A stretch of 47,839 nucleotides of DNA from assembly GCA_947570505.1 (NCBI GenBank), contig CANOTH010000005.1, positions 1 to 47,839 on the forward strand, written 5' to 3'. Origin of the DNA: an uncultured Candidatus Saccharibacteria bacterium (GTDB taxonomy: Bacteria > Patescibacteriota > Saccharimonadia > Saccharimonadales > Saccharimonadaceae). The translations under genes and the position numbers were made by a program. Each line of letters begins with the position of its first letter. Position 1 is the first letter of the stretch. Under the pieces are notes generated by a model. The model was not told where the DNA came from. It saw nothing but the letters and a program-made list of their open reading frames with translations, and made no database searches. This document shows positions 1,289 through 2,187 of the stretch, piece by piece.

Positions 1289-1317
1289 TTGATATGCTTA
1301 AACTTATGCGTTATACT
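1289..1317 (+). promoter_or_regulatory. Sigma70-like promoter of a candidate small RNA
   Basis: TTGATA (1289-1294), a 17-bp spacer and TATACT (1312-1317). The predicted start is near 1324, exactly at the first hairpin of the RNA candidate. Confidence 0.6.
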
Positions 1318-1323
1318 AAAGAT

Positions 1324-1412
1324 AGTTCGAAAGAACATAAGGCTAACTGCGAGCCAACGTTTAAGTTGAGAGCTTATATGTTCAAAAAGCCACCAGTTGA
1401 GGGTGGTTTTTT
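1324..1412 (+). ncRNA. Candidate structured small RNA (~89 nt), four hairpins
   Basis: Between a good promoter and a strong terminator lies a stretch with no convincing start or Shine-Dalgarno. It folds by eye into four successive hairpins: GTTC-GAAA-GAAC (1325-1336, a GNRA-type loop); GGCT...AGCC (1341-1355); AAC...GTT/CAAC...GTTG (1355-1368); and the terminator stem CCACC...GGTGG (1390-1406) followed by six T. An outer pairing of ATAAG with CTTAT (around 1337 and 1373) may enclose the middle two. I cannot match it to a known family. It ends 4 nt before FISUMP-type cassette 1. It could also be a short leader attenuated before the cassette. No expression evidence is available. Confidence 0.5.
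1384..1412 (+). terminator. Rho-independent terminator of the small RNA
   Basis: Stem AAAAAGCCACC / GGTGGTTTTTT with a 7-nt loop. Its T-run ends only 4 nt before the conserved start of cassette 1. Confidence 0.75.
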
Positions 1413-1416
1413 GGTC

Positions 1417-1617
1417 GTCCGTAGCGGACGCATCGATCTTGGTAGTGGTGTTTTGAGACACCTTGGTGACCATGGTTTCGGTAGATCAGGTACTGCTGTT
1501 ACTTATTCGTCACCGACCTCAGCTTATGCTTACAACTTTACATTCACTGGCTGGACTGTCTACTCATCAGATAACTACTATCGTTATCTTGGTTTCCCCG
1601 TCCGCTGTTTGGTATAA
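1417..1617 (+). pseudogene. FISUMP-type C-terminal cassette 1
   Basis: This 66-codon segment encodes only the last part of a domain resembling the Fibrobacter succinogenes major paralogous (FISUMP, C-type-lectin-like) domain. It starts VRSGRI, continues with a TSAYAY segment and ends GFPVRCLV then TAA. The reading frame is open upstream to 1294, but that part overlaps the small RNA and terminator and shows no domain. The DNA begins with CGTCCGTAGCGG and ends with CCCCGTCCGCTGTTTGGTAT (1596-1615); both blocks recur in three other cassettes in this window. No Shine-Dalgarno, signal peptide or N-terminal domain is present. It may be a decayed gene end or a silent donor cassette for a full-length surface protein elsewhere. 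Confidence 0.65.
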
Positions 1618-1905: not shown

Positions 1906-2109
1906 CTAGTATACCAAACAGCGGACGGGGAGACCATATTGACGACCACCATGCGTAGATGGTACTACTAGGTTTCTGTTCATGCCAAACCAGTAAGTGT
2001 TACTAGAAGTAGGCGAGGTATAATTGCCGGTCGTCTGTGCCCAATTATTTCCGTCAAAGCCGACATATCTCACACTGCTATTGCCGTCAACTACTCGCCC
2101 GCTACGGAC
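1906..2109 (-). pseudogene. FISUMP-type C-terminal cassette 2
   Basis: This cassette is on the minus strand and convergent with cassette 1. It encodes VRSGRVV, then YTSPTSS...YWF, and ends GLPVRCLVY with TAG. The conserved DNA ends are exact: the 20-bp 3' block is at 1911-1930 and the 5' block at 2099-2110 (reverse complement). Upstream in the same frame the codons read ICPKG, which resembles the SICPKGWRLP motif of full-length FISUMP domains, suggesting a deletion joined distant parts of a domain. The frame runs directly out of a terminator stem (2155-2187), so no independent start is evident. Function as a protein is doubtful; donor cassette or relic are both possible. Confidence 0.65.
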
Positions 2110-2153
2110 GTTATCCCCTTTGGGACAGATCCTCCGACTGGAAGTCAGAGACA

Positions 2154-2187
2154 GCAAAAAGCCTGCCACAAAATCGTAGCAGGCCTC
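2154..2187 (-). terminator. Rho-independent terminator of the frameshifted minus-strand gene
   Basis: Read on the minus strand, GCCTGC pairs with GCAGGC across a 12-nt loop and is followed by TTTTT. It lies 25 nt after the stop of the gene at 2212-2761 and directly before cassette 2. Confidence 0.7.

Follow-up and report, generated by a model that had tools for sequence, protein, structure and literature searches.

An element at positions 1289–1412 of a 47,839-nucleotide stretch of Candidatus Saccharibacteria DNA (hereafter the window) comprises a promoter, a predicted transcript of approximately 89 nt and an intrinsic terminator, and on comparative grounds it probably represents a stand-alone gene for a lineage-specific, trans-acting, structured small RNA of the Saccharibacteria order (a probability of roughly 0.8). 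Genome comparison indicates that the element itself is beyond chance, being a near-universal single-copy gene in the genus of the window and occurring across the family and order. In common with small RNA genes it has its own promoter and intrinsic terminator, a covarying structure and no coding capacity. Bacterial small RNA genes are an ordinary kind of element, but the family to which this one belongs appears new.

The promoter is a sigma70-type sequence match on the plus strand (1289–1317) consisting of TTGATA at 1289–1294, a 17 nt spacer and TATACT at 1312–1317. The predicted small RNA extends over 1324–1412 (+), its start site being placed from the -10 box with an uncertainty of approximately 2 nt, and its homologues are single-copy and likewise provided with promoter and terminator. 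The terminator (1389–1412, +) is formed by GCCACC (1389–1394) and GGTGGT (1402–1407) flanking the loop AGTTGAG (1395–1401), with a T-run extending to 1412. An initial annotation of the DNA had described a layout of promoter, hairpins and terminator at 1289–1412, and this layout is present. Fourteen promoter-like sites were found in the window compared with 7.4 expected, which is not significant in the window alone, and as promoter-like and terminator-like sites reach only up to twice their chance number there, a fortuitous resemblance without function might be suspected. The reality of the promoter is settled by its conservation among homologues: a match of at least 9/12 was present upstream, at a conserved position, in 98% of 112 homologues, compared with 6% of random windows and 12% of shuffled upstream sequences, and a perfect TATAAT was present in 69% of homologues compared with 2% of controls. 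This conservation, together with the single-copy distribution, synteny and covariation described below, refutes a chance resemblance, to which we attach practically no probability.

The same annotation saw no plausible open reading frame in the element, and this was borne out by comparison. The span between two conserved motifs occurs in all three lengths modulo 3 (44/32/36), with no conservation of frame, and since this length varies outside multiples of three the element is not coding. An open frame at 1294–1617 overlaps the element, apparently open only through running into a downstream protein fragment. A small peptide product was ruled out, the frame lacking conservation among homologues.

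A 136-nt query retrieved the element from genomes of the same genus, and a pattern of the two most conserved motifs, AACTGCGAG..GTTGAGAGCTTAT, gave matches in at least 115 contigs of the collection of genomes. Among the matches listed, nearly all titles were of Candidatus Saccharibacteria, including oral TM7 (HOT 351), with one titled 'bacterium' and one 'Nomurabacteria', the latter corresponding to a genome that is assigned to the same family. A viral origin was rejected, as no viral contig carries the pattern. Because both AACTGCGAG and GTTGAGAGCTTAT are fixed by the pattern, they are necessarily invariant in this set, a bias from which covariance models are free. A model of the window's clade (R1) matched 87 of 294 genomes of the class, exactly once each, made up of 65 of 76 same-genus genomes, with the window's own among them, and 22 from six other genera. 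Three of the 11 same-genus genomes missed by R1 were later recovered with plausible sequence and neighbours, giving approximately 68/76, and no match was accepted with the covariance models in 8 of the 76. Two models built from other genera, R2 and R3, matched 62 and 92 genomes, respectively, with one match each and in up to 33 genera, a number reached by R3. Although trained without the window's genus, R3 placed the elements of that genus at the R1 positions, and under lax filters the window's own element was the best R3 match of its genome. In a sample of 380 genomes from the phylum, all 17 matches fell inside the same order and none outside, though models trained within the order may overlook relatives at a greater distance. 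Weak matches (E about 0.01 to 1.2) add at least 11 families of the order beyond that of the window; these are believable since each lies downstream of khpA with AAAGCUC-AUGCGAGC-hairpin-GGAGCUUU-AUGUG or a close variant.

The gene preceding the RNA in most loci is khpA. The window's clade has the gene order rnc-rpsP-khpA-[RNA]-rpoB, whilst in other genera and most families it is rpsP-khpA-[RNA]-trmD, with trmD, which we take to be such from its N-terminus, located after the RNA at approximately 20 loci from other genera and families. The terminator lies 14–50 nt before trmD in many loci, and a separate trmD promoter is not obvious in loci L258, L252 and L264, as might be expected of a cis-acting leader or attenuator of downstream trmD or rpoB. 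However, in the window's clade the RNA is found on either strand between khpA and rpoB and so has no fixed downstream gene on its own strand; RNA and rpoB lie 2.9 kb apart in the window, with other reading frames in between, and many trmD genes carry an extended -10 box of their own immediately ahead of the ATG. The occurrence of both orientations indicates that the RNA constitutes its own transcription unit and rules out cis-leader as its general role, leaving this explanation quite unlikely. The extended box (TGnTATAAT) is often situated approximately 12 nt before the trmD ATG (L199, L202, L248, L250, L257 and others), a proximity suggesting a leaderless trmD mRNA. In L167-L203 and L207 the RNA promoter overlaps the khpA 3' end, with the -10 box taking in the stop codon (GAT ATA TAA T), and for this reason a double constraint may act on the C-terminus of KhpA, ELAxLDDLDI.

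A covariance search among homologues had been proposed in the initial annotation, with a lack of covariation in the stems named as grounds for rejection; homologues were found and the stems covary. Four hairpins had been described, of which the first, third and fourth are supported, whilst the second, GGCT/AGCC, is the least supported and possibly an alternative state. The first, H1 (1325–1336, +), pairs GTTC at 1325–1328 with GAAC at 1333–1336, and has counterparts in homologues (AGUUC/GAACU, AGUUA/UAACU, AUGC/GCAU and AUGUC/GACAU). The third, H3 (CAAC-GUUUAA-GUUG, 1355–1368, +), pairs (C)AAC at 1355–1358 with GTT(G) at 1365–1368 and shows the strongest covariation, with 22 distinct stems among 43 sequences of other genera. 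Over distinct regions the mean H3 stem was 5.7 bp, compared with 4.0 when 3' halves were exchanged and a maximum of 4.5 in 500 trials. A tool count gave 98.5% paired and six pairs with two-sided changes, compared with 24–41% paired in slid controls; this count leans towards the stored structure, which had itself been fitted to the model, and the exchange test is independent of that alignment.

The second hairpin, H2 (1341–1355, +), pairs GGCT at 1341–1344 with AGCC at 1352–1355. When the core was folded alone, the minimum-energy structure consisted of the first two hairpins of the initial annotation, H1 and H2 (z = -2.0 versus shuffled sequences), whereas a fold that included the terminator favoured a long hairpin GAACAUAAGGCU.../...AGCUUAUAUGUUC (z = -4.0). 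This long-range helix, P1 with its extension (1333–1383, +), is part of the minimum-energy structure of the complete RNA and is supported by covariation of the extension. It occurs in two registers, GAACAUA 1333–1339 with UAUGUUC 1377–1383 and AUAAG(G)CU 1337–1344 with AGCUUAU 1371–1377, overlapping at 1337–1339 and 1377, and its order-wide form is AAAGCUC/GAGCUUU. Covariation of the 5' helix takes the form GAACAU/AUGUUC in some homologues and GCAU/AUGC in others. For the P1 extension and P2, 14 two-sided cells were counted compared with 5.7 in shuffles, none of 500 shuffles being as high. Within the window's clade no covariation was seen for the distal pairing AAGCUAAC / GUUGAGAGCUU, and order-wide sequences support its outer part as P1. 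P1 encloses a conserved UGCGAG bulge and competes with the GGCT/AGCC hairpin, which has the counterpart GCUC/GAGC in other genera and weaker comparative support. Outer pairs formed were 2.2 of 3 for P1 and 0.34 for GGCT/AGCC, a comparison somewhat favouring P1 as a one-base bulge was allowed for it. Sequence comparison thus suggests that P1, which shares its 5' strand with H2, is better supported than the local hairpin. H1 in turn competes with the GAAC/GTTC pairing at 1333–1336/1380–1383, and because both use the same middle strand, H1 and the P1 extension are mutually exclusive. Pairing of at least 5 bp was available for both in 46 of 113 elements, as a raw count with no shuffled control. 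The three strands at 1325–1383 (GUUC, GAAC, GUUC or AUGC, GCAU, AUGC) can thus form two mutually exclusive helices, an arrangement that is a possible conformational switch.

Two motifs accompany these helices. AACUGCGAG, in a bulge or loop at 1345–1353 (+), is kept in the family and its GCGAG part is retained order-wide. GUUGAGAGCUUAU at 1365–1377 (+) is retained across the family and corresponds to GGAGCUUUAUGUG in other families. A third short sequence recurs in the terminator, where the loop AGTTGAG repeats the GUUGAG motif: 95 distinct element terminators were detected directly downstream, and GUUGAG was present in 21/95 of their loops compared with 3/665 other terminators of the same loci, a contrast that is descriptive as related elements were counted repeatedly and the events are not independent. 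The terminator, taken at 1384–1414, is of the form CAAAAAGCCACC..GGTGGTTTTTTGG and might function in either direction, that is on both strands; similar ones occur elsewhere in relatives.

Intergenic bacterial small RNA genes likewise consist of a promoter, a short multi-hairpin transcript and a terminator with a U-run, with no open reading frame; the present element is distinguished from known ones by its restriction to one order of Patescibacteria, its conserved UGCGAG and GAGAGC motifs and the lack of an Rfam family. None of 4227 Rfam families matched at the gathering score, either in the window or in divergent homologues, in support of the original statement that the gene lies outside SRP RNA, 6S, RNase P and tmRNA. 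With relaxed thresholds the element produced only a sub-threshold score for RNAI (RF00106) over 1334–1415, of 24.6 bits compared with a gathering score of 47, which was treated as chance; RNAI is also a small RNA ending in a terminator, but the element has no plasmid context. A diverged version of one of the four housekeeping RNAs would be in keeping with a single-copy, near-universal RNA of about 90 nt, similar to small SRP RNA. However, SRP RNA was not found in Saccharibacteria genomes (RF00169 0/24, RF01854 0/20, controls positive), nor was the Ffh M domain (PF02978) in any of 20 genomes, again with positive controls, so that there is no SRP for such an RNA to serve, and the signal recognition particle seems absent from Saccharibacteria. 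6S RNA (RF00013), which at about 180 nt with a central bubble differs from the ~89 nt element, was found in 0/15 same-genus genomes and gave no match in the family and one sub-threshold match in another family of the order, whilst the window contains no tRNA or tmRNA. A diverged housekeeping RNA is consequently regarded as highly improbable. Among the open-access papers searched, none described the element, and no Saccharibacteria small RNA family was found in them.

The locus would be transcribed as an ~89-nt RNA acting in trans, with the P1/H3 helix presenting a protein with the conserved UGCGAG bulge and the GAGAGC strand, and the RNA may accordingly form a ribonucleoprotein core or be a protein-binding RNA. 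A different mechanism for the same gene is that of a trans-acting antisense RNA, in which GUUGAGAGCUUAU and AACUGCGAG would be seeds for a few mRNAs. Near-invariant short motifs, the promoter-terminator layout and the GUUGAG of the terminator loop, resembling a repeated seed, are consistent with this. However, complements to the conserved motifs were not enriched around start codons in two sampled relatives (2 x 400 kb, with crude gene starts), weakening a general seed-pairing model; the motifs lie partly inside the covarying helices P1/H3, and Hfq was detected in 0/20 genomes, compared with 5/14 control genomes. For the whole RNA, summed 7-mer complements in one relative (G158) numbered 149 compared with 113 expected, mostly from variable parts, and in the other (G026) were not above expectation. 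Pairing with rRNA was considered as well, and the sampled stretches contained no rRNA. The same results would be expected of a base-pairing regulator that has few targets, and the antisense mechanism is kept as a possible, less probable account.

A protein-binding RNA is favoured because motif complements were not enriched, neither Hfq nor SRP was found, and a KhpA/B KH domain was present in 20/20 genomes; that the RNA has some protein partner is considered slightly more probable than the opposite. The leading candidate is KhpA, an RNA-binding protein with a KH domain whose gene lies immediately upstream in most relatives, which as a proposal from neighbourhood only is a guess and a doubtful one, as the rpsP-khpA-trmD order may be conserved for its own sake, counting against the link. 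A housekeeping ribonucleoprotein RNA of the order, probably essential and scaffolding a KH-protein particle where Hfq and SRP are undetected, is a bolder proposal and improbable. CsrB/RsmZ-type protein-binding RNAs carry a GGA motif, repeated in loops and bulges, with CsrA as partner; the element may be likened to these in its manner of working, as it shows a short motif more than once, but its motif is UGMGAG/GAGAG rather than GGA and has two to three copies only. Since a single copy is retained over an order with strongly reduced genomes, the RNA is likely to matter to the cell. Saccharibacteria are very small, parasitic bacteria, some of which are in culture, and a mutagenesis method has been published for the group (PMC10633639). 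The gene is thus directly testable, and through it RNA-based regulation could be approached in bacteria where no Hfq was detected.

Within the assembly that contains the window (G000), khpA is situated at 37.2–37.7 kb of a different contig, the 40.0-kb C7, and thus close to its end. C7 stops within protein-fragment repeats resembling those beside the RNA and may therefore adjoin the window's contig. In the window these fragments lie at 1414–1617 (+) and 1906–2169 (-), end in G[FL]PVRCLV, are apparently without their own start and form an inverted repeat (1581–1621/1905–1945). A like fragment (L279) is present at the end of C7, at contig coordinates 39290–39539 on the minus strand. No Pfam match was obtained for the two window fragments; G[FL]PVRCLV fragments resemble C-terminal Fib_succ_major domains, those at L014 and L016 matching PF09603 below the cut-off. 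The fragments possibly constitute a cassette array between khpA and rpoB.
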